64,000 nucleotides of DNA from Apostichopus japonicus. Taxonomy: Eukaryota; Echinodermata; Holothuroidea; Aspidochirotida; Stichopodidae. The notes under the pieces are model-generated. The model was not told the origin of the DNA. It saw nothing but the letters and a program-made list of their open reading frames with translations, and made no database searches. Shown in pieces: positions 32,701 to 63,712 of this stretch. Made by a program: the position numbers and the translations under genes. The DNA is taken from positions 6,615,001 to 6,679,000 of the forward strand of contig NC_092570.1 of the NCBI RefSeq assembly GCF_037975245.1, read 5' to 3'. The first letter of the stretch is position 1, and each line of letters opens with the position of its first letter.

Positions 32701-34960
32701 ACCATCTCTACTCACCACAGATAAACCACGTCTCGTTTACTTTTCCCCCAACTGCGCTACTAACACAGCACAAAGATATCGACGAATCGAAATTCTGCGA
32801 TCCGTCCCAGGTGACCAAAATGGCTGGAAATTGTACTGCTGAATATTGTGAATGTACACACGTCATTACTGCAGATCTCGGTGAGGTAAGTAGGCCTACT
32901 ACTTAAAATTTACAAAAGTCAGAACGGTTTCGATTTAAACCAGCTCGAACAGGATCATACCCCTCCTCCCTCACAAACACACATACACACACAAACGGAT
33001 TCAAATGGGCTAACAGCCAGGAAAGTGGTAAAGCCATGATTTCCTAATCATATAAGGTGACACAGAAAGGACAACAGAAATGGTAGATTCGGAAATGTTA
33101 TTTGTCATCTCTAAATCTCGACGTCGAGATTAATAGTCGACTAAGTGAGTTCATATGTCCCTTGTGGGCCACCGTATTATCAATCTTGGCGTGTCTAATA
33201 ACTCCTGACTTTAAGCAATCACAAATTTGAATATTCCCCCTCCCCCCAATAAAAATATCCCTTTCACCCCACGCCACCCCACCCAGATCGGAATATTAAA
33301 CTCTACCATTCATTGCAGATCGTGGAACTAGTTGTTATAGACGAGGGCGTAACATTTGGTGCTAGCCACCCAATGCATCTTCATGGTTATTCCTTCCGGG
33401 TCATTGCTATGGAGAAACTCGGGTTATCCACATCTTTGGAAGAAGTGATGGAAATGGATAAAGCTGGGAATATCACGAGAAATCTTCAAGCAGCTCCTCT
33501 CAAGGATACCGTGATTGTACCCGACGGCGGTTATACAATACTCCGGTTCGAGGCTAATAATCCAGGCTGGTGGCTCTTCCACTGTCATTTGGAATTTCAT
33601 GTAGAGGTAAGTGAATCGTTTTGCTTGAAAGAACTCTTGTTTAAGGACCTCACCCAACCCCAAACGCCAACCCCAACCCAAAGAAATAGTTTACAATTAT
33701 ACATTCGTAGCACATTTCACTCCATTATCCAACAACTTTCACCCAGGCATCCTGTCCATGCCTTCCAATTGAACATTAAGAAATCTTCTTGCCTCAACCA
33801 CTACGGTACCATACGGTGTGAGGCTATAGTGTCAAAAACAAACCACATAATATACAAATAATGAATGGTTATGAGTGCAATAGTGCAAATATTTTATGAG
33901 TTGAAAGATGGAATGTTCCATTCCACCCGGCTGCGCCTCGTTGAATGGAACAAATTACATCTTTCAACGAATGAAATATTTGCACTATTACACGAATGGA
34001 AACCATGCATTATTTGTTTGATACAACATATTATATAAAGATGGGTAAAATGCACTCACGCAACAGATTGTTTTGAACAGACAGGTTTCTCTGCTCTCTT
34101 ACCATTGAAAAAAGTGCTACCAATAAAGTATAACCCATAGTTCTATTTCATAGAGTGGAATATAGCGGATTTTGCATGCAATCAACGAGCAATTGACCAA
34201 TCAAATGACCAGAATACAATTAGGTGTTGTATAATATGGAATATTATATAACGCATATTACTACATACCTCTGTTTGGAGTAGTATGACCAAGCGCTTAC
34301 ATTATTTTGTTAAAAAAACATTTCGCCCCCTTCCTCCCACCCACCTCAACCCCCGGTTGAGTTTAAAAAGAACCTGCATATATAATTTGAAAACCTTCTA
34401 TATATATATTTAAAGTCACACGTTATGAAACAACATAAAGTTATAAACAAGCAGTGAAATAATTCATAAACATTATCGTAGTTGCATTATTGATTCATAC
34501 TTTCAAATTCAGAGAATTGACGTAACCCTGTCAGTGATGGACATTTCATAGTGGATGTTTCAGGGTGTGTGGATCCCCCGCTGGGAAATGAAGAAAAACG
34601 TTACATATTTTGTTATTTGCTGTATTAATTTTCAAAATAGAACTCTCGAGGCTATCCGTTTTCCTGATTTTAAAGTTTGAAGGAGTAAGCTGTTCCTATT
34701 AAATGTTATTCTTTATTTACTCATTTTTCTTCTTTTCTATTGGTCGTATTTTATTTCAGATTGGTATGAGTCTGGTGATACATGTCGGCGATGATGACGA
34801 TCTACCGGAAAAACCCGAAAACTTTCCGAAATGTTACGATTGGCCACGAATGACATCTGATGCACAGGATAAGCCCGGATCTGGTGCACATCGTATTGTT
34901 AGCAATATATTGATATTATGCGCCACGATGATGTTTATTTTACAAAATAAAATAATTTAG
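25412..34960 (+). CDS. Laccase-type multicopper oxidase, complete, eight exons, 663 residues
   Basis: Laccases oxidise phenols and catechols and reduce oxygen to water with four copper ions; animal forms act in pigmentation, sclerotisation or defence. Exons: 25412-25472, 29711-29943, 30310-30579, 30929-31380, 31928-32097, 32569-32885, 33319-33606 and 34760-34960. They total 1992 nt and every junction keeps frame. Exon 1 is a signal peptide ([14 protein letters not shown]). Exon 2 has the Cys-rich animal laccase N-terminus ([26 protein letters not shown]). All four copper motifs are present: [38 protein letters not shown] and [12 protein letters not shown] with an axial Met. The ending [17 protein letters not shown] is like insect laccases. 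The last ~20 residues are hydrophobic after GSGAHR, so a GPI or membrane anchor is likely. Intron 1 is 4.2 kb. The physiological substrate is unknown. Confidence 0.95.
26443..26510. repeat. (TA)n microsatellite, left of a foldback
   Basis: About 68 bases of pure TA in laccase intron 1. It pairs with a second TA array at 26706-26764 on the other side of an inverted repeat. Confidence 0.97.
26575..26704. repeat. Foldback element with a palindromic core, between two TA arrays
   Basis: The outer arms are ACATGTAACACAAGATATAC at 26575 and its inverted partner ending at 26704 (TATATTGTGTTACATGT). The centre at 26604-26640 is a near-perfect palindrome around TTCAGGCCATTATGGCCTGA. It lies between two (TA)n arrays in laccase intron 1. 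It looks like a miniature inverted-repeat element whose TA target expanded, or a cruciform-prone site. Confidence 0.75.
26706..26764. repeat. (TA)n microsatellite, right of the foldback
   Basis: Fifty-nine bases of pure TA in laccase intron 1. Confidence 0.97.
27437..27472 (+). other. Potential G-quadruplex in laccase intron 1
   Basis: Five G runs of three to five, separated by one to four bases (GGGGGAAGAGGGCGGGGGC, then two more GGGGG blocks), meet the usual quadruplex pattern on the sense strand. On the complementary strand it would read as poly-proline, which I take as an artefact. Confidence 0.6.
31433..31794 (-). mobile_element. TTAA-flanked miniature element, copy 1, in laccase intron 4
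   Basis: TTAA stands at 31433-31436 and 31791-31794. Just inside are inverted ends: AGGGTGTGAAGACTC on the left and, read on the minus strand, AGGCATTGAAGACTCGCCC. The interior is about 80% identical, in opposite orientation, to 53386-53756. TTAA targets are typical of piggyBac and Kolobok superfamilies. No transposase is encoded. Confidence 0.8.
32137..32354 (+). mobile_element. Retroposed element with a U2 snRNA-derived head, in laccase intron 5
   Basis: Bases 32148-32191 match the 5' end of U2 snRNA at about 41 of 44 positions, including TCGGCCTTTTGGCTAAGATC and the branch-site recognition stretch GTGTAGTATCTGTTC. After that the sequence no longer resembles U2: there is CCCTTTCGAGGGG (a small hairpin), an unknown body of ~110 bases and the end TTTTTCCTTAAAAAAAA. 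A direct repeat GTTTATAACGTTCG (32137-32150) and GTTTATAACGTCCG (32341-32354) flanks the insert, 13 of 14 identical. The A-run and long target duplication show LINE-mediated retroposition. It is either a single chimeric retropseudogene or a copy of a snRNA-headed SINE family. It lies in sense orientation in the laccase. Confidence 0.88.
33854..34017. mobile_element. Foldback miniature element in laccase intron 7 (164 bp)
   Basis: The two halves are inverted copies of each other for nearly their whole length: ACAAATAATGAATGGTT at the left pairs with the minus-strand reading ACAAATAATGCATGGTT at the right. Both then run through AATAGTGCAAATATTT, GTTGAAAGATG and TTCCATTC. The loop is CACCCGGCTGCGCCTCG. 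No coding capacity is seen and target duplications are not clear. Confidence 0.8.
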
Positions 34961-45296: not shown

Positions 45297-46432
45297 ATGG
45301 AGGGAGTGGCAGCCATCATTCTCCTGGTGGTATTAATCAATATAACGAATGGTAAGTATATTTTTGCAATTAGTTTTAGTTTTAGTCTCTGACCCTCCAA
45401 ATTTTCCCTTTAGATTTTACTGATGTGTATAGTAAAACAAATAAACTGTCTCAATAGGAAAATGTTTTGCGGGTTGCACGCATAGGCTATATGCAGTAAA
45501 ACTACTTGTTGAAAGTTTGAGCATAACTGACTTTTTAGCCATATTTGGTGTTTATAATACTAAATGATGACCCTTAAAACTTCATAAACTTCGCACTTCT
45601 TCTTATGGTTTCTATAGAGTTATCATAATTTACAATGTTGAAAAATGCGAAATTTGTGTTGAGTTGAACGAATCATCATTTATATATAGACAGATTTCCA
45701 CCACTACATTGTAAAGCCGACTTTCTCTCCCACTCACAGATGAAATATTTTACGGATTTCAGATACACTACTTCTCGCCGCCGTATATATTCTTAGAACA
45801 ACATTGACAGTCTGACACAGGCTTACCGATATTTATCACCCCTCCTTTCCCCCTCCCGTTCCTTTGACGTACCCCTTTTCCCCCTCTCACTACCGGTGAA
45901 TTTTTATCATCGATACTGATTTGAGAACTATACATTTAGTGTACTTTTGCCAAAAAGAGGTGCCTTAATTTTGCCAAATTTTGTTATGCTGTTTTATTTC
46001 CAATCTCGTTACTTGGTACTGTTTACTCACGTGACAGGTCAAGATGCAGGTGTTGAAGACTTCACATGTATCAACAACCAGATAGGTCACACGACCCGTT
46101 TTGTGCCCAATCTAGTAGCTGCTGGGGCTGACATACAGCCAATAACCTTTGACCGATTCCAGACAACTGGTGGGAATCAAATACAGATGCCAGCCGGAAG
46201 TATGAGGTCCGAAGCCACGGATATAGCAGTCCGCCCCTTCGAGAGACAGAGAAATGTTCCCGAGGCTACCCGTACTGGTATATTTGAATGTCGAACCACA
46301 GATGGAAACAAAGACATCTCCATAGCTGTTCCCATATTGAACAGAAATTCTCGTAAGTTTGTATCAAATCTAATAAACAATTATGATCTATTTTACTTAG
46401 CGCGTAGTGCTCACAATGGGCAGTTAACATCG

Positions 46433-46470
<38 letters not shown>

Positions 46471-49400
46471 GATAGATAACGATATAAAGCCATATGAGAA
46501 CTTTATTGCCTGAAGGTAATGTTCACTGCATTTAAGTGACATTGTAGCTTTTGTGACATGGAAGCACAATTCAATGTAAGCCCACATGAATATTTTGATA
46601 CATTGTGGTCTTAATCTATTTTTTGGAGGAAAATGATGAAATAATTTCATCTTTTCATATTTTGCCGGTTCAACACGACTGCCAATAGGTAAAAGTAACA
46701 TAATAATTCTCAAGTCGTGTTGGCTTTCAGTCGGGATACTCAATTGGAGCGTTTAGGGCCTACGTTTTAACTGTCCAGCTTCACTAACAAATGTTACCAA
46801 TGGAGAGGAAACAAGTTCTTCGTGTGATCCACCCGGTCTGCTCAGCGACGCGAATAAGTCTCCCTACATAAAAATAGGAAAATGCTACGGCTGTTATACT
46901 TTCCTCCCTTTGTATATAGGCTACGCTTCACAGTAGAGGCCGGCGCAATCACATGAACGAATCGCCCAAGGCGTGATGAATAGTAAGGATCGACCCAGCG
47001 CAGTAGGCAAAGAAACATTGGCCGATACGCCAAAGGCTACCAGAGCCCCAGTCGTGAACGGAACACAGTCGTGCGCTCGCGTGAGTCGTGCGTTAGTACG
47101 ACTATATGATTACACGGCTATCAAAGATTGCGTGTTCATTCCTACTTAGTAAAGATTCCTAAATCCTATTGGTCCATTCAGGTCAGCTGATCGTGGTTAA
47201 TCCTGTGAGTAACGCACGGTAAAATTACGGGGCATCACTTTAATAAATCTTTGGTTATATGTAACCAAAAATGTTTTGTTTATGATTTTTATCCCCACAC
47301 AAATGGTAGTGTATGAATGAACGGGGTTAATCAACGGTCTAGCGTGCGTTACTCACATGATTAATGCACTCAGGGTGTTAATGCTATCGCTGGATGCACT
47401 CGGGCTCCGCCCTCGTGCATCGCTTGCATTATCCCCGATCGTGCATTATTCCTGTGAGTAACGCACGCTAAACCGTTGATTAAACTCTTATTGTTCAATG
47501 CTGTGTCTGACAACGTGCGATCGGCTGAACAAAGAGACCTAAGTATATTTTTTTAGCGTGGTCCCTGAAGATAGATCAAGCTTACAATTTTTGACCGCCA
47601 ATCGATCCATACTCTGACTTTCAAACTGAAAGCGTATAAATATTTGGGGGACTTTGTCAGTTTTCACATAGTTTTATTCTATAAATTTTGGGAACTACTA
47701 TATGCTTTAAACATTAATTTTAACATAATCCTGTGAATATTTATACATCAATGTATATCGATTTCTAACTTTTAACTATTCACATATTATTATTATATCC
47801 AGCACAATTAAAACACATGTTCTGCCTGTTTTCCGGTATTTTGCAGAAATATTACCTCGTGCGGAATTAACGAAAACCGTTAATAGTGGCGACGACGTAA
47901 CATTGTCTGTGAAATCCAAAACAAGAAAAGTCGAATGGACAAAAAATAACGAAGATTTACCGCAGTTTGCGCGCAAACTTGCTGTCAATATTAAAGGAGC
48001 CACTACGGATGATTCCGGTATCTACGAATGCTTTACCGACCGAAATAAACCACATGCAGTTATAAGGTTAATCGTACGCAGTAAGTATATGTTCACTTTA
48101 CTAGTCACCGAACTTTGAATATGAGACCATTACTTAATAAATTAATATCATAATCAAGCATGGTTTTTTTTAACTTCGTACAACAACAAAAACAGCAGTG
48201 CATTCTTGGGTCTCTTCCATTCATCAATTTTTTGTCATTGACTAAATTTTGTAAGGATTGTATAAAAAAAAATCAATTATTAAGGCCAAAAAGTCCCAAA
48301 TGATGTCAATGATTTTTGTTCTTTTATTGCTTCCAACAAACCATTCTGTTTCAGATTGTGTTTCAGACGTATAGTCAATACACTTAGATCAACGAATCTT
48401 TGATGATATCTCAAAACATGAAAATTAAATAGAAATACAATTTTTATTATTAGCAGTGTTTTCAACGGTCATGTCATCAAACTGAATACCTATTTACTTA
48501 CTTGGTTATAGTTTGCTTCTGTGTCGCTATTCAAGCTTTATTTTACAGTTGTTGGAGTGTAGAATTAGAACCGCACTTCTGTCAGTGTATAGTTTTAACC
48601 TCCTTAAAAACAGCTACAATTGTCACAATCTTCCAAAGAAGTATCAATTTGTGAACGACTCTGTGTGACCTTTAACCCATATGGTTACCATATGGTTACC
48701 CGAGATTTAAGAGGGGTATTCCTGTTTCTCTCATCACGACTTCACATACAATCTGGACCCCCACACCCACACCCACCCCACCCCCACTACAACCCCACAT
48801 GGTCGAATAACAAAAAGAACCGTTCGGTTATATAGCTATTGAACTTGCCAAAGTCGGAAAGTACGCGAAGCTTATCGTCGGTTCACTATACATGTCATTG
48901 AAGTCACACAATCCTCGTCAAACATTAACACACTATGTATATAGTAAAAAACGAACTATGTATTATTTTATAATGCTATAAATAAGTTGAAATGCATTCT
49001 GTTACAATTTCAGGTTGCCCAGAAAATCTCATTGGGGAAGCATGTGACGTTCCTTGCTTTTGCTATAATGGGGGCGTGTGTCGGGATGAAGGCGGCTGCA
49101 TATGTCCGCCTGGATTTTCCGGAGAGCTGTGTGAAGTCTGTAAGTTGATTCCCCTATATAAAAGAGTTAAACTTGCATACCCAGTTTTAAATTTCAGTCG
49201 CAATTCGTGAAATCTGGAGGATGGGGGATGCATCGATCCACCCACCCCACTCCACCCCACTCCACCCCACATCAAAGCTAGGCCAATTAATTGGCCTACA
49301 TCAACTGAATGGGACATGTGATGTTAAGGGAGACACCGTATTTTTTTCCAGTGCTCTTGCAGCTGATATATAATGCTATAATAGCGGGCCGCATGGGCCG

Positions 49401-52400
49401 GGGTCCTCACCTGCCCCGGTGTCCGAATCACCGGGCCGCATGGGCCTGGCCCTACCTGCCCCGGTGTCCGTATCGCCGAATGTCTCGGTACAATTACCAA
49501 CCGCATGACTGTTGTTGACTTCTACATCTTACGCAGTATAGAAACCCTATTAATTTTGACCCTGCTTTAATGCAGGTAGTCGTAATAGATTTGATTTTTA
49601 TCGACATCATTCTATGAGTGTTATTTTCTCTATCCATGTAGTGCATACGGCCGACAACTTTGGCAAAGACGGCCAATATAGCTGTTCGGATCCCGCAATG
49701 ACCACTCTTGGCTTCGAGACTGACTGCAGGGGTGAACTTTTCTGCCTGCAGGATCCATATGGCTGTTCATGCGCCCCTGGTATTAGGGGGATATTTTGTC
49801 ACTTAGGTAAGAACGTCTTGTGCGCTGCGAAAATGTTGCATCAGTCATTGCACTTTCACAGTTTGGTGGTGTTTTGTAGTGTCAAGTTTAATTTGCATTA
49901 TTGTAGGTGAAAGTTCGCTTCCGTATATTACTATAACTTTATGGCAAAATTTATAGTTTTTTAAGCTTGAAGAAAAGCAATGAATGGTGTTACACTACAT
50001 GTATGGCATGGAAATTGAGATGAAAATGCCGTTAACGCCGTGGTTATGTCATTAATTATTCCTTATAAGGTCATGTAGTTTTATGTACTCACTTTACTAA
50101 ATGTCATTAGTACGAGGTCAGTACCAAAAGCCCATGAATTACTTTTCCAGCTCTGAAAAAGTCCTAGCAACAAAGCCCACCCTTCCATCCCGGCTCCCAT
50201 TGCCTCAGTTAAAATTTAGTGTGGTTATGGAATTAATTCGCTCAGTGTTCCATATTCGTGCTAACAAGTCTCCTTGCTGTGTGCAAAAACATGGAACTGT
50301 CCAAATTATTTTCATTTGGTATTGTGCTGCTTTGTAAAGTCACCAAATTTTAGACTGAGGTCAATAAATGTCATTGTAACAGCACCTAAATACTAGTAAA
50401 GTTATCCAGGCACCTGTGTCTGCAATGTTACACCTGTTAGCCTAAACATCCAGTCGTTTGATCGAAGCCACCGACGTTATTGCAAGCCCCTCAACTGAGG
50501 ATTGCCGTGTTTTCTTAGATCCTGTCTATATGGATATGCTTCTTCGTTTGTGGGAAATAACTGAGCGATAACATAATATCGATAAAGAAACTGCTCTTCA
50601 TTTAGCATCAAGTCTGTCCATTGCGAGCAATCATGACACAGTTATGCGTGTTGCAGAGGTACTTTAGTGTAATTGTAAATAAGAGTTCGCTGTGGGCCTA
50701 ATTCACACTTCATACTCAGTCATAGCCGAGGTTGGGCTAGAATAACACACAGGCCTTACTTTTAGGCCAATTGAGTACACTAATAGTAGTATTGTAGCCT
50801 GCCGAACGTTTGCCTACACTAACGACTAACGTACATGTTATTCTATCAAAGTAAGCCCTAACCATGACCGTCCGTATACTATAACCTTGCGAGGTTTATA
50901 CTTCCATGCCCTAACAGTAACAGTCGAAAACTAACTTTGATTTGCTGATTATATGCAGCAGGCGTACTGTGAGGATACTGAATCCTGAAAATAAAATAGC
51001 AAACGTAGATCAAGCCCAGGCCTTAGTTACAGTTACTGGTTAGTTCAAAATTACCTTTAAGAATAAGAGGATGCGAATTGTAAAAGGTTCTAAATGATGA
51101 TAGTAGGATGGTGACTTCGAAGTTCGCCCACTTAAGACTTAAAACACCCCAAAACTAAATCTTCTGGTATAAATCATTTAAAAATATACTTCATATGGTG
51201 GGAGAATTTTGTTATAGTACGATACACGGCCAAACTTTCTTTCCTGCAAACTGTTTTCACGTTGTTTTCCAAGAAGATTCTTCGTGATTGTGGAACTGGT
51301 ATTTCTTGCTAGAGTATTGCGAATTTCGGCCACGCAACCTACAGTGTGGCGCTGGTAAAAATTGGTGGCGCTGTTGCTCTTTCAGTAATTATAACAGACT
51401 TCATAGATCTTCGTCATTTTATTGACAAATATGTAAGTAATTTCTTGCACACGGGTCATTTTGGAGAGAAAATAACTGTAGCTTCGTACTTTTTGGTGAA
51501 ATTTGGCTCTTCCTGTAGGTTTTCATGGTGAAAATCGTGTATTTCTTAGGGTGCCCGAACTTCGCAGTATGGCGAACTTCGCAATACTGACTATACTATT
51601 AGTAATGAGCCCTAACATTTATAGCATGGCCTAGACTAACCAGAGTATAGCAGTTTAAAAATTTTAAAAATTTCAGTGTCACATGTATGCATGTATTTTA
51701 GATCCTCCTGCAAGCAGAAACTCGCGAAGAAGTCTCATTGGCTTATCAAAGCCGCAAGCTGACTGAAGTCGGTCTCTTACATTCATATTTAACGTCCATG
51801 ATTATGAATTATCAATTGTCAACAACTCTGTAACTGGACGACATACATTAATCTTGGAGTGTCTCAAACCGGTGACCTTATGGTTGGAAGGCAACAGCTT
51901 TAACCACTGAGCTAACACTTCACGATTAAAACATGTAAACAAGGAACTTGCCATCTTGTCATCAACTTGATGTATTAAAATTAAAATTCAACCTCCAATG
52001 GTCAATTTCTCCAGGCAGACTGAATTTATAAATAACATCCTGCTCATTTTATTGAACAAATTTTCATGTGTCAGTTTTTGTAGCGCATACTACGTAACCA
52101 CGGTAACCATTTCTACTGTGGCTAGATTCCCATATTCTGTGTAACCATCTGCCATTACCATCAACTGCAGATAAACATTAAACCCTAAAAACAAATAAAT
52201 TTACACTATGGTCCTTAATTCCAGAAAAAAATTTTGATGAGGAGTTTTGCTAATTCTTCAAATCAGTAACACTGCTACAGTGCATTATAATTGACATCAA
52301 CTCATATTTGAACCTTTTAAAAACCCATAACCATCAAGGGTGAACTGGTTAGGGTTGGGTGGAAAACTGGCATGAAAACTGGGGTATAACTGGTCAGTCA

Positions 52401-55400
52401 GTCCATACATGGTGTTCATCAGTGGCGGAGCGTCCATACAGTCATCCGCCCCCCCTGACGGACTCAAATGGACTGCTGGCGCCCTTTTCAGCTTTTTACC
52501 ACGTTTTAATTATTCGCGATTATTGACTTTTTTTATCGCGCTCTCATCTTTCTATTGACATTTGTCACATTTTTTCGGCGATGACACATATTTGTTCTTC
52601 TTTTATCTGCAAATTGCAAGGAAAGGGTCATTTCCTGCGATCTCGGGAGTATCTTACTCAAAAATTTCGGTACGCTCCGCGCCAACTGTGGTGGCGCTCC
52701 GCTTAGATAGTGCCGGAAGCGCCCCTACAGACCATTCTCGCCCCCCTTCACCAATACCCTTAGCTCGGCCACTGGTGTTCATGTTTTGTACACATGTTAC
52801 CATGTAACAATGCATAAGGAAAATGACCTCCATTAATGATGTAATAATGGTTTCACAACTGGAAGGTGACCTACCTCTGTAAGATTGTTTTCTTCAAATT
52901 ACAAATATACAGTTATTAAAAAAACAAAAAACAGTTACTTTAATCTTTTTTTTTGTTTTGTTGGGCAAAGTAAGTATATGAACTAGATAGCACAGTTTAG
53001 TACAGTAATATAACACTGCACACTTATTTTTCATCCAAGCAGCCTGGTTCTCACAAACCTTCAACCACACAGAACAACTCAAGTGAACTTTGTGATATCA
53101 TATTCCATTATTGATCAATTCATATAATGGAAATATTTATTTAAAGTTGCACCTTTTAAACCATTTTTTTCTTCTCCACTCAGCTTGTCAAAAAGGAACT
53201 TTTGGAGCTGACTGCAAGCAGACCTGCCACTGTGCTGCAGGATCATCATGTGACAGTAAAATGGGGATATGTTCCCCTCCTGGTTGTGAAGATGGCTGGA
53301 CTGGTGAAAACTGTAATGGTAAGACAGGAGCAGATGAGTCACCCGCCCCCCTCCCCTTCCCCACAGAAAGGATTCTGACAGCACCTTAAAGGCATTGAAA
53401 ACTCGCCCCCAATCCGCATGCCGAGCTCTGAAAAAGTTAACTTTCCGTGGCTTGAAGTGAAGTTTTCTTCTTGTTGCTACAAAATGCAGACACTAATGCA
53501 ACATGATACCTTGTTACCTGTTATCATTCTAGACCTGAGATGTCCATTGCTGCTATGTACACTCTGTTGTGGGTATTGACTGTAGCTGTATGTATTGACT
53601 GTACACTAGTGTCTAAATACTGACGGTAGCAAGCTGTGTGTGTGTATTTTCTGGGATCGATGGTGGTGATTAACACTTCTGTTACACCTCATTCGAAACT
53701 AGGTCAGATTACCGGCATGAGACGTTTCTTTATGCACGAGTCTTCACACCCTTTAACCCTACTACTAACCTACTAAGCCTCAATCCTACTATATCCCAAC
53801 TTTATAAAAACCTCATACTTTTGTAACACAATTTCTATTGCCAATAGGTAAGATTGAACTGAAACTATCGTTGTTAGATCAAATTCAATGCGCAGGAGAT
53901 TGATTAGCTGTTGCTTTTCCAAGCAAGCCTTACGTTGCACAGGCTTAGCACCCTTTCGTAGCAGCAGTACCCAAGTCTATAACCTTCATTGCATGGAAGA
54001 ATTGTGCTGTCCTTTTTCGTTATTAGGTTCATTAACTGCTGATGTTAACTATTGATTATGTACCGTCCGACCACTTCTTGACCAAAAGCAACAAATCTTA
54101 ACAAACTTAGCATTTTCTACTCAACTATGGAAAATAATATAAAGTATCCCATGACTAAAGAGATACATTCACCTCTTGGTTTCATATCATTTCACACTAT
54201 TGGTTTGAAGTTAAAAAAAACTTTCTTGGAATTATACTATATTATTATATTTCACATGTCACACATGTCACATATTTTCATGGTTGATTCTAAAGGTAGT
54301 TTCAGTGTTGATTTGACATAGCGTAATAGTTGAGAGAGGTTTAAATGTTCCGCGGTCATCTGTATTGTTTGGCTCTCAATTTAAAACTATGATAATTAAT
54401 GCTTGCAATAAGAAGGGCCCTGACTATACGATGCACTCGTTTAACATGTGCTATAAGGCTAAACTCATATAAGTTTCATGTTCTACTCGAGATCTGTAGC
54501 CCAGATGATAGATGAACTTTTTGTAGGCGAGGTTTTGCATCTCAATGGAATTTGTACATACTACGGTACACAATAAGCCCTGCAGTTTCACAGATTAAAG
54601 AGATTAAGCACACATGACTGAAATCTAATGGATTTCATTTAGAATAAGTTATATAGTGTTAAAGTTTCCAAATAAAAACAGGTTTCATCACAATTCTTTC
54701 TGGAAATGGAGGTTTGGTAGGCTTGACCCTTTATGCCGGCTGCAGGTTGACTTTACGTCTCTCCTTCCCTCTCCCTCTCTCCCTCCCCATCCCTTTTACT
54801 CCCTCCACCTCTCCCTTCCCTCTCTCCTTCCCCCTCCATCCCTTTTCCTCCCACCACCTCTCTCCCTCCCTCCCTATCCCTCCTTCTCCACTTGTTGTAT
54901 TTTTGTTTATATTTGTCTTATCCTTGTGAGTGACTTTCTTTTGGTTTCTAGAGAGAATAACATGCAGACATGAACCGTGTGAGAATGGTGGAGAATGCGA
55001 AGATGTCGGCATCAATGACAGTTTCCAGTGTAATTGTCTTGAAGGATTCATTGGAGATACTTGTGAAGGTCAGTAGCAAAGAACACTTTACTTTATTAAT
55101 CAAAAGTTTGGCATTAAATATCATAGCAATATTTTTGCTAGAGTATCACCATGAAAATTCCTTCAGATGCTTGATCTGTTACCAGCAGCAAGGTCTATAA
55201 AGGAAATTGTCTGTTACGACCCTAAAATAGCTTGTAGTCAGTCTCAACATCCAAATCAGTTGCTGAACTGTTGGTAAAATCGACTAATTGAATGTATTTA
55301 GTCAATATCCTTACTTACATGCCATGGGCAAAAGATGTGTTTTGGTTCATCTCGTTCCAAGCAGTGTTCCATGAACAACCTCCCTAACTACCACAAAGTG

Positions 55401-58400
55401 GTCAATTATCATTTTTGCAGCACTTGGTATTCTCTTTTACACACACTCACAGAAACGAAACATTGGATTTTACTTTGGCTTGATATTATTTTGTACATCT
55501 GAAGCTTTTAGCAGTAGAATTTGCTAACCGTTTACTAGCTAGGGGCCTAAAATGTGTGTAAGGCAGATCATCCATTCGTGTGCCAGCTGTACGGATCAAT
55601 ATATTAGACTTAATTAACATGTAATGCAATTTGGAGAGTATGTGTATCACAGCGTCATGGTTGGTCTCCTACTTTCCAGTTCCGTTATAATCATTTTCTG
55701 AGCTTTTATTTAAATTTGTTTCAGTTCTTTCTCCTTGCTCTTCTGATCCTTGCCAAAATGGAGCCACTTGCACCGATGGAGAATTTGGAGACTACACTTG
55801 TGAGTGTGCTCCTGGCTTTGAAGGCACAAACTGTGACATTGGTAAGTATCATGGAATGAAAAATCTAATTGAAAATTGGAAGAAAAAAGCTGGGATGTTA
55901 TGTAGAAAAATAGAAAAGACAAACTGATTATAAATACCCTTTGAAAGACATTATTTTCACCTTTAGAGAGCATTCTAAGTATTAAAACATTTTTCATTGT
56001 ATCAACTACAGTATAATGGTGTCATGTTCCATATATATACAACCACGATAAACATACAAGTATGGCAAGATGGCACTATTCTGGGCCAATCAAGAAGCAG
56101 TGGTGAGTGGGGGGAGGGAGAGGAGAGGAGTTGAACAATACCAGTGTTGTTACTAAAAAAGTGAACTATTCAGTGTGGCAACTTAAAGAAGTGTCAAAAG
56201 TTATGGAAAGCGGTGTTAGCAATCAGTTACCGCAGTTGTTCTTTATAGAGTGTGTTTTGCACAAGAAAAACTGAATATGTCTTTATTATTCCAGCACCTG
56301 CTCCTTGCTCCTCTGAGCCTTGTGAAAATGGTGCTATGTGTACAGATGGAGAAGGTGACTACACCTGTGAATGCCCTCCTGGCTTTGAAGGCAAAAACTG
56401 TGAAACTGGTAAGCGATATGAATATATTTGAAAACAGCAAATGAAGGATGTGGACTTTGTTTCGTAACTGTAAACGGTTATGAAATGTTAGGAGCCTTGT
56501 CTAAAACAGTTGATGGTAGATTGTCTTTTTCTGGCTTTGAAGGTCAAAACTGTGAAACTGGTAAGCGAGATGAAAGTATTATTCAAGACAGTAAATTAGG
56601 CATTGGTCTGTTTCTTCTAGACGGTTACCCTGTTTGTCTGTCATGGTGTGTTGATTATATACTACACACGATCAGTTTCATTTTGTCTTTCTAAAGTGTT
56701 TCCGATGCGATGCGGCCCGTTATGATAATGACAGTTGTATGTGCGGGTAAATGAATTATGGCAAATATCCACCCATTGTCAGTTTGAGCTCTGGCTTACT
56801 TCTACTTAACTACTTAGGATGGTAGTAGTAGTGTCTTTGTTTTTTTGTGAAAGGCACTTTTTTGCTTTTTTTTATGTGGAATTAGGGATTTTGTCAGCTG
56901 TTGTTGTGATGGAATTTTTTTTTGTTTTCAAATTGTATACTTTTTAAATTCAAAATTATTGAACAGATTTTTTTCCCTCCCCCTCTCAAGAGTCCTGTAA
57001 CGCTGCTTGCCCTCTGATATATGTACCAGTCTGTGGTTCTGATGGAGTAACTTATGGCAATGAATGTGTCTTTACTTCTGGAGCCAAATGCAGAGATGAA
57101 ACTTTAACCTTTACAGAGGGTGAATGTACTGGTAAGTAAATTTTTGATGAAGTGAATACAATGGTCTGATATAGATTTCTCTAAGTTGAAATTTGACTTG
57201 TAATGTAGAATTTATTTGACCTTTCATCTTGAAAGTTTCGACCTGAAGATGAAAGTTGATTGTAAAACTGTTATAAAATGTTAGAAGTATGTGACTACTG
57301 GGAAAACCCTTCATCAATACTGTAGATTTGATTCATGATAGCAACTACTCCTTGCTCCTCTGTGCCCTTGTGAAAATGGCTCTACTTGTACCGATGGAAA
57401 ACTAGGAGAATACACTTGTGAATGATCAAAGATAAATTTTTGTGTTGGTGTACAAATTGAACCAAAAATAGATGGGAGAGTACAATATACGATTTGATGA
57501 AATATTTTGTGCTCAAGTCTGTTTTAATTCCGAGACTACAGAAACTATAAAAAGGAATTGACTGATTGATTAATTGATTAATTAATTAATAAATGAATTG
57601 AACGGTACATTCCAGTTCATTTCTGCCATTAACATTCCAGTCCGTCATTTACATAATTAGAAGAAACAAACAGAGAAGACAGAAAGAGAGAAAAAAGAAA
57701 GCAGTCTACAAATTATACAAAGTTATTAATTAAGTAGTTTTCTAAGGTTCTCTTGAAGGAAGATTAAGAATTACAGCACTGAATGTGACTAGGAAGAGGT
57801 GACCATTTTTAGATGGTTTTAAAGTTTTCCCCGTTAGTTGTTAAACTGCGGATATGGGGTGCACACTAAACCTGGTTGTGACCTTTCATAACCACACCCT
57901 GTGTAGAAGCCTGGTAAAATCACTAGAGAAACTCTACGGTTGGATGGTTTATACGAGAAACATACGATTAACTAATCATGTTTATAAGGGTGTTGTAAGC
58001 CAGATCTGCTCAAGTTTAGTTATAAGCCAAAAGCCATATTGTCAAATTATGGTTTTCTCATTGAGCAATTCATGGGCATAAAATCAAATTTCACTGTTTT
58101 CATGTTGTCAGCTCTGATATAACATCCATAATACATACAGTTGTTATACCTGAATACTGTTTGCTCACAGTTTAACGTTTTTACAAATTCATCAGATTTT
58201 GAATATTTTTCTTCAATTTGCCTGGTGCAAGGTTGTAAATATAGCAAATTTGATTAACTCTCTGCAAAGTCTACACTAAGTTAAAGATCAAAAAATTTAT
58301 TTCCATTGTTTCATGATCATAATCATGATCATGGTCGAAGAGATGTTTAAAATGAGCTTCAAATCCGATTGTGTTTTGTTCTTAAAATATTATTTATATA

Positions 58401-61400
58401 AGATATTGATTTCCATTGCTTTATGATCAGAAAACAGAATCATAATAATTTTTTTCTCTCTCTTTTTGTACTCAAATGTTAGGTGCTACAAGTAAAGAAC
58501 TGAAAGAACTTGAGAAACCAAATAGCTTAATAAATTTATGAACAGAGAAAGTGGTTTGAAAAATTATTAAAAATAAACAAAAGCAGAACAGATGATACAA
58601 AGAATAAAACACAAATTGCAGTATTACACAACACAAAGTCAAAGATATGTTTAAATGAGCTTAATACCCGAGCTCGTTTTGTTCTTAAAATAATTATATA
58701 ATCCCGTAAAAATTTGTATATGTTGTTTCCATTTGTTTATAGAAGAAGTATCATGTGATAAGCCATGTCCAAGGATTTTTGATCCCATCTGCGGCTCTGA
58801 TGGAGTGACTTATGAAAATGAATGTCTCTTCGAGGTAGCGTCTTGCAAAGATGAAACTTTAACATCTACACCTGGTGAATGTCCTGCTGGTAAGTATCTG
58901 TACCGGATTTTATCAATATAAAGAGTAGGTTATTCTCGGTAAGTTCAAGGATCCATTCTGTTTCACGGGGGTTTTTTCCTGGCAGCAGTTTAAATTCACT
59001 TGAGGGTAACAATTTTAAATCCTTGTAAATAAGGTAACTTGGAAAGTACAGCTTGGTTGAACTTCAAAGCTGATATGTAGATGACTGCTTGTTAGGTAAT
59101 TCACAAACATTATGTAAATAGAGGTCAAAGGTAGGATCCTACTTTTGGTCGTAGTTATTAGAATTTGATGTCATATTTTGTGTACAAATTGAACCAAGAA
59201 TAAATGGGAGAGTACAATATAATGATTTGATGAAATATTTTGTGCTCAAGTCAGTTTTCAAGATTATAGAAACTATGACTAGGAATTGATTGATTAATTA
59301 ATAAATTAATCGAACGGTACATTCCAGTCAATTCTGCCATTTACATTCCAGTCCGTCATTAACATATTTAGAAGAAACGAACAGATAAGACAATAAGAAG
59401 AGACAAAACAAAAGACAGAGAGAGAAAAGACAAAAGAAAGCAGCCTACAAACTATTCAAATTTATTAGTTAAGTAGTTTGTTTTTAAGTTTTTCTTGAAG
59501 GAAGATTAAGAATTACAGCTCTGAATGTGACTAGGAAGAGATGACCACTTTAAGATGGTTTTGAAGTTTTTCCCTGATAGTTGTTAATACACAACATAAA
59601 GTCAAAGATATGTTTAAATGAGCTTAATATCAGAGTGCGTTTTGTTCTTAAAATAATTATTAATCCCGTAAAAATCTGTATATGTTGTTTCCATTTGTTT
59701 ATAGAAGAAGTATCATGTGATAAGTCATGTCCAAGGATTTTTGATCCCATCTGCGGCTCTGATGGAGTGACTTATGAAAATGAATGTCTCTTCGAGGTAG
59801 CGTCTTGCAAAGATGAAACTTTAACATCTACACCTGGTGAATGTCCTGCTGGTAAGTATCTTTACCAGATTTTATCAATATAAAGAGTAGGTTATTCTCG
59901 GTAAGTTCAAGGATCCATTCTGTTTCATGGGTTTTTTTTTCTTGGCAGCGGTTAAAGTTCACTTGAGGGTAACAATTTTAAATCCTTGTAAATAAGGTAA
60001 CTTGGAAAGTACAGCTTGGTTGAACTTCAAAGCTGAGATGTAGATGCACTGCTTGTTAGGTAATTCATGAACATTATGTAAATAGAGGTCAAAGGTTGGA
60101 TCCTACTTTTGGTCATAGTTTATAAGAATTTGATGTAATATTTTGTGTACAAATTGAACCAAGAATAAATGGGAGAGTACAATATAATGAATTGATGAAA
60201 TATTTTGTGCTCAAGTCAGTTTCCAAGATTATAGAAACTATGACTAGGAATTGATTGATTGATTAATTGATTTTTTAATTAATAAATGAATTGAATGGTA
60301 CATTCCAGTCCACTTTGAAAGCTAGATGAGATTTTAATGCGATACTCTGGTAAGAGAATCAATTTTTGACAATTTAATATGGTCTCATCATTTTTGCACA
60401 TACAACAGTTTGTCCTGAAAATTATTGTGAAAATGGAGCGACATGTCGTGGTGATTCAGAGAGTTATACCTGTGAATGTCCTCCAGGATTTAAAGGCGAA
60501 AACTGTGAAACACGTAAGATGTTTATTTACAATTATTATTAATATTTTATGGGATGACTGTTTTCAAAATAGTCTGCAGATGAAGTTAGAGGACACATTT
60601 AGGCCTACCGACCAACATACAATTACCTAAACACAGGCTCATTTGATAAGCAAATTTGTTAACAGTATCTCTTTTGACTCTTTGACAACTCAAAATGAGC
60701 AGTTTGCTTCAGAGAAATGCATGACTCTGAATTGGATGAGATTTAATTATGAGCATGTATTTTGTTTTGTTTTGTTTTTGTTTTTTGGTAAGTCTAGAGA
60801 TCAATTGTATGTCAATGTGATTCTCCCCTTTAGTATTCTAGTCCAAAGTTTAGCTCGCTATAAGAAATGCTAGAAGTCTTCAAAATTGCTTTCCTAGTGT
60901 TTCGGATTCTCCAAATAAGTTGTAGTCCATTCAGGATCAGTTTTAAAATAGAACATTTGAAATATCTCAGTGTAGGAAATTAAATTTAATACATATTGTT
61001 TCTTGGGAGTTGAGGGAGGGGGGGGGGTTGGGGGGTATAATGAGGACATTTAATAAATCCAAAACATGGAAACTGTTAAAAGTATGCCCCAAAATTTCAC
61101 ATCGCAAAAGCATGTGTTGATAAATTGGTTGCTTGGTAGAACACCAAGCATGATTGTGTCAAGTCAAAGGTGAAAGAGTTGTTTCATCAGGAGTTAATGG
61201 AATAATCTGCTATGATTTTTTTTCTTTTCTTGTTGGAGAGAAAATAACTTCTGCTTTCGTTGGTTTCCTTGATCAGTACTTATTATATCTCTCTTTCTCT
61301 TCTCTCTGTCAAATATTTTACAGCTCTCCAATGTCAGTGTAACTTGTGGGTGGAGCCTCACCACTTGACCTTTGACGGACAAGAGTTCACATTCCAGGGA

Positions 61401-63712
61401 GAATGTGAATACGTCTTAGCGCAGCACACAGCCGAGCAGGCTGCAGATTCAGGCCTGCCTGCTTTCAATTTGATTGGACGTTATCACAAGGAGCGACCCG
61501 ACGACAAGATAAGTCTGTTGAATTACATCAGATTAGAAATGAGTGGGAAAGACTTCAAAATGCATAACCAGATTTTGTACGTCGACGGAGAGCAGGTCGC
61601 CACTCCTTACATGGGGGATGACATTTCTATTAATCTCTTGCCGGATGGTGCTTTTGTAAGTGTTGTTTTGTCATTTTTACAGGAACATGAAGTGGGGGAG
61701 TGGGGGTGGGGTGGGGGGAGTAAAGAGTCACATTTAAATGAGAGAGAATGATATAAAATGATACTAGTCGAATGCAGTGAATGATGGCAATGTTCAATTA
61801 GTCCCTCAATATGACAATATTTTGGTTGTCCCAGGTTCTCACAAAACTGAACAGATTTAAGAGAAATGTTTAGAGTAATAATTTTAAACCAGAAACTGTA
61901 CAGTGAGGTTTGCATTTTACCATATTTAGAAATCTATTCTTTGAGCTCCTAGAATTCCTTTATGAAGATTTTTTTTTATTTGGGGATAGAGGGTGGGGTG
62001 CTAGGGGAGGGTTGTTGTGGTTAATAGTGGAAATTTGTGGTGAAACCTGAAACCCACAAAAAAAAATTGTGATTTAGGTGGGGATGCGAGCAGGATAATG
62101 GAAGTGTGAACTTAAGAACTTTACCCTTTAGATTTCGAAGTGGACATGAAAATTACTCTGATGAAGTTTTTTTTCACGTGAATTTTCATCCAGTTCAGAA
62201 AGGAATTTTTGATGTTTGCTTTTAAAAGAAAGTTGTCCATATAGCTCTTGTTCTATGCAGTTCTGAATTCATCCTAATGGTAATTTGATATCTTAAAATC
62301 AAAGGAGCAGATATACCTATTATCAGTAGAGAATTAGAGTGATTAATATGATTGATTATTAACATGATATGATTAATATAATATACCATCCTAAGTAGTT
62401 AAGTAGAAGTAAGCCAGAGCTCAAACTGAGGTAGAAGTAATTCTTGTTACTGACCGGTAAGACTACAATAACCAGCTTAATGGTACTTTGTTGGTTGAGG
62501 ACATATTTTGGTTCACACAGAGCATTTCTAAGTACTCAACTGTGATTTAAGAAGGCAAAAATTTGCTTTGAAAATCAAGTTACAGAAAAATACTTCTTCG
62601 ATCCTGACATAGAAATGTGTGTCCCTTTATGTACATGTGTGACCATTTATTGATTGTAAGGTTCTTAACATGCATTAATGATTCACTTTAAGTAGAGTAA
62701 AAGAATCGCATTTCTGTTCTTTTAGATACTTGTCACAAGCTTCGGCTTGATGGTTAATTTCAAAGACACGACGGCTACTATAAACCTCAGCGCCACCTAC
62801 AGCCAGAACGTGGACGGCCTGTGTGGCAACTGTGATGGAGTCATCGAAAACGACTGCGAAGGAACTGTAAGTGATGTTTATCTTTTACTGTTAACTTTTG
62901 TTACTATTTCTCTCACTTGTCATATTTCACGAAGATGTCATAAATATTCAACACATCGCTCTGGATCGAGCCCCTATTCCTGTTTGATCTGTCAAATGGA
63001 ATTACTCACAAGCAATAGTTTGCCCGCATGAATTTAGAACAGGACAAAGTTATTAACTGAGTTTCTATTAATGTGTGTTGACTCTAATAATCACTACTTT
63101 CCCTACTGTGCTCACTTACTAATGTGATCCAGTTTCTGTGTTGTTAACAGTTTTTTGGGGGGTGATGACCCTGGGGAGTTATTCTCAGCTACCCCTATAG
63201 TCTATGTGAAAGTAGATAAAGCTCTCAATTTGTTCCTTCTTAACAGTAGTTAGACAGTATGCTCAATTTTTGTATTATTTGAAGTACCAGATTGAAGGTA
63301 TGGCATACATCTGAAGAGGCTACCCCCAACAGGGAACAATCCCTCCCATTTCCCCCGAGCTTCCACCTTCCCATGTTTTTACAAGTAGTTGATCACCTGT
63401 CAAAAATTTTTCTTCTGAGAATCAATAGATGGTATGGAGTACTGCACATGCTCTCGCCCATAATCCCCAACAGGGAGCACTTGCTCTCGCCCATAATCCC
63501 CACCCCTTCTTTCTCAATTAGTTTCTCAACAGTATCATGACACTAGTGTATTTATCTGCTCCTACAGGGCGCAAAAGCCATCAGTGCATGTGCAAAGGAA
63601 TGGGCTGCTCTTGATGAGTGTGCAACCCCAAAACCCTTCGACGCTTGCCTGGAGAACAAGGATAAGCGTGAGGAAGCCGAGAGATTGTGTGGAGAACTTT
63701 ATGGAACTGAGG
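45297..63712 (+). CDS. Large secreted/extracellular protein: Tie-receptor-like Ig and EGF domains joined to EGF, Kazal, VWD and C8 (partial, runs off the window)
   Basis: Exons: 45297-45351, 46038-46352, 47847-48080, 49014-49139, 49642-49806, 53184-53318, 54952-55068, 55725-55841, 56295-56408, 56991-57131, 58743-58889, 59705-59851, 60409-60513, 61324-61655, 62726-62866 and 63568-63712. All have AG/GT borders. Every junction is phase 1 except two phase 0 junctions inside the VWD part, and the frame never breaks. The total is 2536 nt, 845 residues, still open. Order: signal peptide (1-18), Ig-like 1 (19-123), Ig-like 2 (124-201), EGF1-3 (202-343), EGF4-6 (344-459), Kazal 1-3 (460-604), EGF7 (605-639), VWD (640-797), C8-like (798-845). 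No FNIII, membrane segment or kinase appears. One gene is favoured because no new signal peptide or stop lies between modules, but a two-gene model is not excluded. Function unknown; adhesive or protease-inhibiting roles are possible. Confidence 0.8.
46438..46467. repeat. (TA)n microsatellite
   Basis: Thirty bases of TA in intron 2 of the Tie-like gene. Confidence 0.95.
47326..47485. mobile_element. Foldback miniature element with ~45-bp arms
   Basis: The left arm GTTAATCAACGGTCTAGCGT, then GCGTTACTCACA, is mirrored on the right, where the minus strand reads GTTTAATCAACGGTTTAGCG, then GCGTTACTCACA. Both lead into ATTAATGCAC/AATAATGCAC. The loop is rich in GGGCTCCGCCCTCGTGCA. A loose fragment (CCTGTGAGTAACGCACGG) lies at 47199-47216. 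It is in intron 2 of the Tie-like gene. Confidence 0.8.
49384..49480. repeat. Two-copy tandem GC-rich repeat, ~47-bp unit
   Basis: The unit GGGCCGCATGGGCC, then ACCTGCCCCGGTGTCCG, occurs twice in a row in an AT-rich intron of the Tie-like gene. The origin is unclear. Confidence 0.75.
51700..51918 (-). mobile_element. tRNA-derived SINE, full-length-like copy
   Basis: Read on the minus strand the element starts with a tRNA-like head at about 51918. It has an A box (TTAGCTCAGTGGTTAAAGC), an anticodon-arm-like stretch (GCCTTCCAACCATAAGG) and a B box (CCGGTTTGAGACA). Then follow a body shared with 3879-4040 and a TAAAATACATGCATACATG tail. Box spacing and the body attached to the head show a SINE rather than a tRNA gene. 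It lies antisense in an intron of the Tie-like gene. Confidence 0.85.
52420..52774. mobile_element. hAT-type miniature element (355 bp), exact 8-bp target duplication
   Basis: Left end CAGTGGCGGAGCGTCC; right end AGCTCGGCCACTG. GTGTTCAT flanks both sides (52412-52419 and 52775-52782). It shares a core, TACGCTCCGCGCCAACTG and GGTGGCGCTCCGCTTAGATA, with the 875-bp element at 43761. It is in an intron of the Tie-like gene. Confidence 0.9.
53386..53756 (+). mobile_element. TTAA-flanked miniature element, copy 2
   Basis: TTAA stands at 53386-53389 and 53753-53756. Inside are inverted ends: AGGCATTGAAAACTCGCC on the left and, on the minus strand, AGGGTGTGAAGACTCGTGC. It matches the element at 31433-31794 in opposite orientation, including TGACTGTACACTAGTGTCTA and TTTTCTGGGATCGATGGTGG. 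It starts 67 bases after the EGF3 exon. Confidence 0.8.
54759..54890. repeat. CT-rich low-complexity tract before the EGF4 exon
   Basis: About 130 bases of CTCCCT/TTCCCT variants lie 60 bases before the 3' splice site of the EGF4 exon. It may have grown from the polypyrimidine tract. Confidence 0.85.
56530..56575 (+). pseudogene. Partial duplicate of the EGF6 exon end with its donor site
   Basis: CTGGCTTTGAAGGTCAAAAC, TGTGAAACTG and GTAAGCGA repeat the last ~30 bases of the EGF6 exon and the following donor (56379-56415) with one or two changes. There is no acceptor or upstream exon part, so this is a broken fragment, although the donor-like site remains. Confidence 0.75.
56779..56824 (+). 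repeat. 46-bp repeat, inverted partner at 62384-62429
   Basis: TCAGTTTGAGCTCTGGCTTA through GGATGGTA is identical, base for base over 46 positions, to the reverse complement of 62384-62429. The partners lie in two introns of the same gene, 5.6 kb apart. Confidence 0.85.
57342..57426 (+). pseudogene. Decayed EGF exon
   Basis: After an acceptor-like CATGATAG comes CAACTACTCCTTGCTCCTCT, a clear relative of the EGF5/EGF6 exons (CCTTGCTCCTCT, GAAAATGG, TGTACCGATGGA, TACACTTGTGAATG). One extra base in GTGCCCTTGTG shifts the frame and TGA follows at once. The 3' part, with the last Cys residues and the donor, is gone. It should not be used in the mRNA. Confidence 0.85.
57450..60345 (+). repeat. Locally duplicated block containing Kazal exons 2 and 3 (period ~962 bp)
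   Basis: From about 58627 the sequence ACACAAAGTCAAAGATATGT through the Kazal exon and its downstream intron is repeated from about 59589 (offset 962), at roughly 95% identity. Intron parts such as ACAAATTGAACCAAGAATAA, ATGGGAGAGTACAATATA and GATTGATTAATTGATT occur three times (near 57465, 59180 and 60150). An older copy therefore exists upstream, next to the dead EGF exon. Confidence 0.88.
61324..63712 (+). other. VWD domain and start of a C8-like segment of the Tie-like gene
   Basis: Exons 61324-61655, 62726-62866 and 63568-63712. The VWD start is canonical ([29 protein letters not shown]), as are the calcium-site and Cys motif region [17 protein letters not shown]. The third exon has Cys at [21 protein letters not shown] and RLCGELYG, as in a C8 domain that follows VWD in mucins, VWF, zonadhesin and SCO-spondin. 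VWD-C8 units often polymerise or bind matrix. The exon ends in phase 1 with donor GTAAGT at 63713, so more exons follow. Confidence 0.9.
62384..62429 (-). repeat. 46-bp repeat, inverted partner of 56779-56824
   Basis: The minus-strand reading is identical to 56779-56824. It lies in the intron between the two VWD exons. Confidence 0.85.

Follow-up and report, generated by a model that had tools for sequence, protein, structure and literature searches.

Does a single gene of the holothurian Apostichopus japonicus join the ectodomain of a Tie-type receptor to modules of secreted matrix proteins? The question is raised by a 64,000-nucleotide stretch of contig NC_092570.1 (here C10), positions 6615001-6679000, referred to below as the window; coordinates given without a contig name count from its start. 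The original prediction, made from the letters of this DNA, described a Tie1/Tie2-like series of Ig and EGF exons that continues in unbroken phase into EGF, Kazal, VWD and C8-like exons, with neither a membrane segment nor a kinase. Our splice model extends this gene (copy A of a family) past the window end: it comprises 57 exons at 45297-104578 (C10:6660297-6719578) and would encode 3,612 residues (coding sequence of 10,839 bases) with no internal stop, of which the window covers roughly the first quarter. The predicted order is a signal peptide, Tie-like Ig1-Ig2-EGF1-3, three EGF modules, three Kazal modules, one EGF module, seven D assemblies (VWD-C8-TIL-E) and a C-terminal fibrinogen-like domain (FReD). 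We consider the one-gene architecture of copy A very probable.

The analysis was based on the following approach. The genome searched contained 671,581,487 bases in 35 contigs, and flanking DNA was added to the window (196 kb past its end, 50 kb ahead of its start). The splice model was built by dynamic programming, confined to exon cores that were picked by eye and are our own predictions. Three conceptual pieces, including the N-terminal 1,033 residues, were submitted to Pfam, and phmmer was run against PDB chains with the Tie part (the 324 residues after the signal peptide) and with the FReD. For the Tie query, 118 of 708 candidates were scored, and a locus was defined by Ig2 together with at least EGF2 and EGF3. 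The evidence is genomic sequence, from which we infer splicing across 53318-54952 and a single transcript over EGF3 and EGF4.

The Tie-like head

All exons of copy A lie on the forward strand. Exon 1 (45297-45351) encodes a putative signal peptide of 19 protein letters, with an ATG, 11 of 12 hydrophobic residues and a GTAAGT donor in phase 1. It is followed by the Ig1 exon (46038-46352, phase 1-1), which shows 99% identity to copy B and 36% to locus F of the same family, and by the Ig2 exon (47847-48080, phase 1-1), which runs into the motif LIVRSC. The exons of EGF1 (49014-49139), EGF2 (49642-49806, containing DPYGCSC) and EGF3 (53184-53318, donor phase 1) complete the head; like Ig2, they were assigned by the PDB search and by their paralogues.

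The three best PDB matches of the Tie part are Tie2 ectodomain sequences (1e-33, residues 33-323 of 324), followed by an unrelated Ig protein at 1e-10, with no stretch passing alone, and an EGF protein at 5.7e-6. The order Ig1-Ig2-EGF1-2-3, with DPYGCSC in EGF2, is thus that of Tie1 and Tie2, as the original prediction had proposed. Sea urchin SpTie1/2, cited in the literature, are grouped here with Tie1/Tie2.

The likeness ends at EGF3. In vertebrate Tie receptors a third Ig domain sits between EGF3 and the FNIII repeats, a domain that the original prediction skipped in describing the receptors as passing from EGF to FNIII. In the modelled protein neither a third Ig domain nor FNIII follows EGF3; EGF4 comes instead, and Pfam shows no fn3 in the N-terminal model. 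Whereas Tie receptors go on to a membrane segment and a kinase, the modelled protein continues into EGF, Kazal, VWD and FReD modules. In a hydropathy scan of the whole copy A model the threshold of 1.6 is exceeded only in the signal peptide and in a strand of VWD1 (1.63), which agrees with the proposed lack of a membrane segment. No kinase exons appear to be joined to EGF3 either: C10:6.66-6.72 Mb holds no kinase-family match, among the matches listed, and no match to the pattern HRDLAARN.

From EGF3 to the FReD

A putative intron (53319-54951) leads from the Tie part to EGF4 (54952-55068), EGF5 (55725-55841) and EGF6 (56295-56408), then to Kazal 1 (56991-57131), Kazal 2 (58743-58889), Kazal 3 (59705-59851) and EGF7 (60409-60513), all placed by the splice model, with Kazal and EGF matches in Pfam. 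VWD1 is encoded by two exons (61324-61655 and 62726-62866; Pfam VWD, 82.4 bits), and the first exon of C8 domain 1 (63568-63712) is the last of these in the window. The exons within the window are open, have AG/GT borders and compatible phases, so that each module named earlier was found where it had been placed, and the splice model bears out the unbroken phase from the Tie part through the C8 exon. A profile search of the conceptual protein had been suggested as a check; over the N-terminal 1,033 residues, Pfam recovers Kazal_1 (three stretches), EGF (five), and VWD, C8, TIL and TILa (one each) above cut-off.

Beyond the window, the rest of the first D assembly, D assemblies 2-7 and the FReD extend from 64250 to a stop at 104578. 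The earlier description of a Tie, EGF, Kazal, VWD and C8 protein therefore stands for the part visible in the window, but six further D assemblies and the C-terminal FReD, lying past its end, were missed. The seven D assemblies repeat one phase rhythm in the splice model. Over the three pieces, Pfam finds VWD in 1, 5 and 1 stretches, C8 in 1, 5 and 1, and TIL in 1, 4 and 1 (totals of 7, 7 and 6); the exon pattern gives seven TIL modules. The C-terminal Fibrinogen_C match reaches 193.8 bits, and the best PDB matches of the FReD are FIBCD1 (2e-51), ficolin-3 (5.6e-45) and angiopoietin-2 (2.9e-44). The final E module (TIL-type) and the beginning of the FReD lie within one exon, 102223-102543, so that their join is independent of splicing. 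An AATAAA occurs about 180 bases past the stop, a weak indication because such hexamers are common at the locus.

One gene or two

The Tie query yielded 12 loci on C10 and C1. Nine of these have VWD1 and FReD matches downstream on the same strand and in the same order: A (the window gene), B and C at C10 6.66-6.97 Mb (+), D and E at C10 5.87-6.08 Mb (-), F at C1 4.69-4.77 Mb (-), G and H at C1 17.14-17.28 Mb (+), and I at C1 21.45-21.49 Mb (+). Identity across the loci goes down to 36% (Ig1), 48% (VWD1) and 42% (FReD), and the distance from EGF3 to VWD1 is, from A to I in order, about 8.0, 40.9, 34.3, 8.3, 19.4, 4.3, 1.9, 1.9 and 1.9 kb. Read directly, locus F shows Ig1, Ig2, EGF1, EGF2, EGF3, two EGF modules, VWD1 and C8, with no Kazal. 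The one-gene reading is favoured because Tie, VWD1 and FReD are linked at nine loci, the diverged locus F included. The shared phase is weak evidence, because extracellular modules of such kinds are usually 1-1.

Two adjacent genes, duplicated jointly as a cassette, would give a similar picture: a kinase-less Tie-ectodomain gene reaching to 53318, and an EGF-Kazal-VWD-FReD gene starting from EGF4 or before. The gap at 53319-54951 in copy A does contain two polyadenylation hexamers and four overlapping signal-peptide-like ATGs, and the same gap in locus F contains four such ATGs (one with a phase-0 donor). However, none of the four in copy A has a phase-1 donor into EGF4 (one, at 53540, has a phase-0 donor), similar ATGs are equally common in other introns (eight in 45352-53183), and hexamers are sparse by the standards of this locus, at 1.2/kb compared with 0-3.1/kb in eight other introns. 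The preservation of the order at nine loci, with EGF3 and VWD1 as little as ~1.9 kb apart, also argues against two genes, which we regard as quite unlikely.

A pseudogene or an assembly artefact, with exons joined by chance or misassembly, appears extremely unlikely. Near-identical tandem copies are a known assembly hazard, and the loci at C1 17.14 and 21.45 Mb score identically; against this, copy A has 3,612 codons without a stop, the same linkage is found on two chromosomes, and the substitutions follow a purifying pattern. Between A and F, synonymous sites are saturated, and the nonsynonymous divergence (dN) amounts to 0.37 in the Tie part (308 codons) and 0.26 downstream of it (339 codons); for the latter figure the second extra EGF of F was used three times, as the closest counterpart of EGF5, EGF6 and EGF7, and Kazal and signal peptide were excluded. 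Between A and B, the ratio of nonsynonymous to synonymous divergence (dN/dS) is 0.28 in the Tie part (six differences of each kind) and 0.11 across the remaining modules (18 synonymous and eight nonsynonymous, with Kazal 2 and 3 both paired with one B exon). These comparisons show the putative coding sequence to be under constraint.

Several points weigh against a single Tie-headed gene. The A-B ratios are built on few changes. The nine loci are not independent, being partly tandem duplicates and forming at most three groups. The modules can separate: three of the 12 Tie loci (C1 17.195, 17.287 and 21.508 Mb) have no VWD1 match downstream, and VWD1 and FReD matches without a Tie match among the candidates scored occur at C1 4.38-4.42 and 4.44-4.48 Mb, as the presence of two genes would predict. 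As to the head itself, no Pfam Ig model passes its cut-off in the N-terminal piece (Ig2 reaches 27.6 bits with Ig_4, vs 30.1 required; Ig1 has no match), so that Ig1 is assigned from the Tie2 alignment, whose start lies inside Ig1, and from the paralogues. Ig_Tie2_1 is likewise absent from the Pfam matches of the N-terminal model; a genome profile search with it (PF10430) found no match, but its controls were equally silent and the search is uninformative.

The putative Tie-VWD-FReD family

The alignment of copies A and B comprises 16 blocks of 92.8-99.7% identity, with B at window coordinates 128.5-225 kb. The part at 72.5-86.5 kb reaches 99.3-99.7%, an apparent trace of recent gene conversion. 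The segments C1:17138851-17178481 and C1:21450534-21489984, 4.3 Mb apart, give equal match scores, suggesting a recent segmental or assembly duplication.

Kazal number varies from one to 32 in four of the copies. A unit of 961 bp containing one Kazal exon (phase 1-1) has been amplified in tandem, as seen with a single-exon query that gave 81 matches; Kazal 2 and 3 of copy A, spaced 962 bp apart, belong to this same unit. Copy A has three Kazal exons, B has 32 (31 at ~961 bp spacing), C has 23 (21 in the array) and D has one, and the matches in the arrays are without stops. The arrays occupy 58743-59851 in the window, C10:6764735-6793672 and C10:6911396-6930755. With one Kazal exon as the query, loci E-I gave no Kazal match past 1e-6. 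With a single phase 1-1 exon per unit, the reading frame is preserved whatever the copy number.

Many further places in the genome resemble the Ig2 and EGF1 of Tie (147 matches, some of them at C19 8.6-9.2 Mb, where tyrosine-kinase matches were also listed), which makes the putative window gene one branch within a large superfamily of Tie ectodomains. The count of 12 Tie loci leaves out open frames of EGF-array type at C4 26.07 Mb, as well as numerous isolated matches to EGF3 or Ig2 on C2, C16 and other contigs. The Tie-like expansion agrees with the expanded tyrosine-protein kinase receptors reported in a portion of PMC5638244. Many Tie-like Ig2, EGF1 and EGF3 matches are present at C2 22-31 Mb, C16 14-20 Mb and C19 8.0-9.2 Mb, with tyrosine-kinase matches interspersed on C19. 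On C9, a query combining the E module with the FReD has numerous matches that span both parts, often in one open frame and, among the matches listed, without VWD matches there; the FREP genes of C9 may share ancestry with the tail of the window gene.

A separate Tie kinase

A search of the genome for a separate Tie kinase gene had also been suggested, and it led to C2. A human TIE2 kinase query matched short exons with 64-73% identity at C2 2.538-2.541 Mb (-) and 2.486-2.487 Mb (+). The joined fragments of the former place score 1.1e-73 with TIE2 vs 1.1e-45 with FGFR3, and Tie-like EGF1 matches (E 2.2e-5 and 0.037) are found ~20 kb upstream of it, in the same orientation. By these matches, a predicted canonical Tie kinase gene is located on C2, distinct from the window gene. 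The two places (C2:2537857-2541397 and C2:2485964-2487504) are inverted and ~52 kb apart, and are a probable canonical Tie gene and its duplicate.

The generic kinase profile searches did not by themselves identify Tie among the matches listed, and the HRDLAARN pattern has 30 matches in the genome, none at the Tie loci. Two other candidates were rejected. The kinase open frame near the end of copy C (C10:6983519-6984259) is on the opposite strand and scores higher with PF00069 (172.9 bits) than with PF07714 (116.2 bits). The locus at C17 34.14 Mb, with diverged Ig1-Ig2-EGF1, was set aside as a true Tie receptor, as it has no kinase match nearby and the kinase was found on C2.

Proposed function

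The predicted product is a secreted structural or binding mosaic of ~3,600 residues, with a Tie-type head, an EGF/Kazal neck in which the Kazal number depends on the copy, a stalk of seven D assemblies and a FReD tail. We give this reading as a whole about an even chance, and a matrix or immune role of the protein slightly less than that; within it, a secreted matrix protein similar to FCGBP and mucins, perhaps of coelomocyte origin, seems most likely. The D assemblies would form disulphide-rich, protease-hardened chains, the Kazal domains would inhibit serine proteases, and head and tail would bind partners, for example FReD proteins, glycans or cells; the protein would work in mucus, clot or matrix.

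Like FCGBP, MUC2 and MUC5AC, the window protein has repeated VWD-C8-TIL-E assemblies. Four of its seven VWD modules (VWD2, 3, 5 and 6) contain GDPH, a predicted self-cleavage site. Counting against the proposed function, the other three deviate: VWD1 is without GDPH, VWD4 reads GNPH and VWD7 reads SNLH. In FCGBP, according to a part of PMC10880436, 11 of 13 D assemblies have GDPH, a D-to-N change like that of VWD4 blocks cleavage, and cleavage increases protease resistance. Together with these data, the GDPH pattern points to a protease-hardened, mucus-like chain. Unlike FCGBP and the gel-forming mucins, the window protein adds a Tie head and a FReD tail, and Pfam shows no cystine-knot or mucin-type models. 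Its C-terminal FReD is shared with FIBCD1, ficolins, angiopoietins, tenascins and FREPs, but here it sits at the end of a stalk of D assemblies that bears a Tie head. The sea star footprint protein Sfp1, which we take to be a large secreted echinoderm mosaic of VWD, C8, TIL and EGF modules, presumably has neither a Tie head nor a FReD.

Angiopoietins consist of a coiled coil and a FReD and bind Tie2 through the latter, which bears on two further readings of the head. It may be a decoy, with which the matrix-bound protein would capture angiopoietin-like or other FReD ligands of the true Tie kinase. Retention of the Tie2-type Ig2-EGF region and the presence of a true Tie kinase on C2 are consistent with a decoy, as are the numerous FReD genes, FREPs being the most expanded family in a portion of PMC5638244; however, in the comparison of copies the EGF modules are better conserved than Ig1 and Ig2, and we hold a decoy to be rather unlikely. 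In the other reading, still less likely, the Tie head of one molecule would bind the FReD tail of the next in coelomic mucus or clot, with Kazal number setting protease resistance. The FReD, carried on its D-assembly stalk, is closer to FIBCD1 than to angiopoietin in the PDB matches. Under head-to-tail assembly, the angiopoietin-Tie contact would have been turned into a code for building the mucus or clot, with the receptor's ectodomain and its ligand's fold joined on one secreted chain.

For the mosaic matrix protein, a possible link to coelomocytes comes from single-cell RNA sequencing of Holothuria glaberrima, where, in a part of PMC11244903, MUC5A, FCGBP, SSPO, FCN1A, MUC5B and TIE1 all rank among the leading genes of C11, a coelomocyte cluster. 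Fragments of a Tie-D-assembly-FReD gene would be given just such labels, and one gene type might underlie them; against this, the labels may belong to separate genes, and the genus differs. In skin ulceration, a portion of PMC4906609 gives Mucin-2, IgGFc-binding protein and Zonadhesin-like as up and Fibrinogen-like protein A as down; some of these names may or may not stand for genes of the present family.

Our literature search, with most subscription papers and the sequence databases of other animals outside its scope, found no description of a Tie-VWD-FReD protein; the available portions of PMC13409769, PMC8870065, PMC12113024, PMC13228809 and PMC12631484 contain nothing on this architecture. 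If expressed as modelled, the ectodomain of a signalling receptor would have been recruited into a secreted mucin-like protein of a diverse gene family, a testable case of domain shuffling among receptor, ligand-type and matrix modules. The TIE1, FCGBP, mucin and ficolin labels in one coelomocyte cluster may then be pieces of one gene type, and gene models or expression studies that name such genes Tie kinases would need correction.

Other open frames in the window

Two further regions were noted by eye. Open frames at 30259-33861 (+) contain the multicopper-oxidase-like motifs HWHGI, HLHGY and HCH. On the opposite strand, 10798-13050 (-) holds a 750-residue open frame with apparent ankyrin repeats followed by a charged tail.

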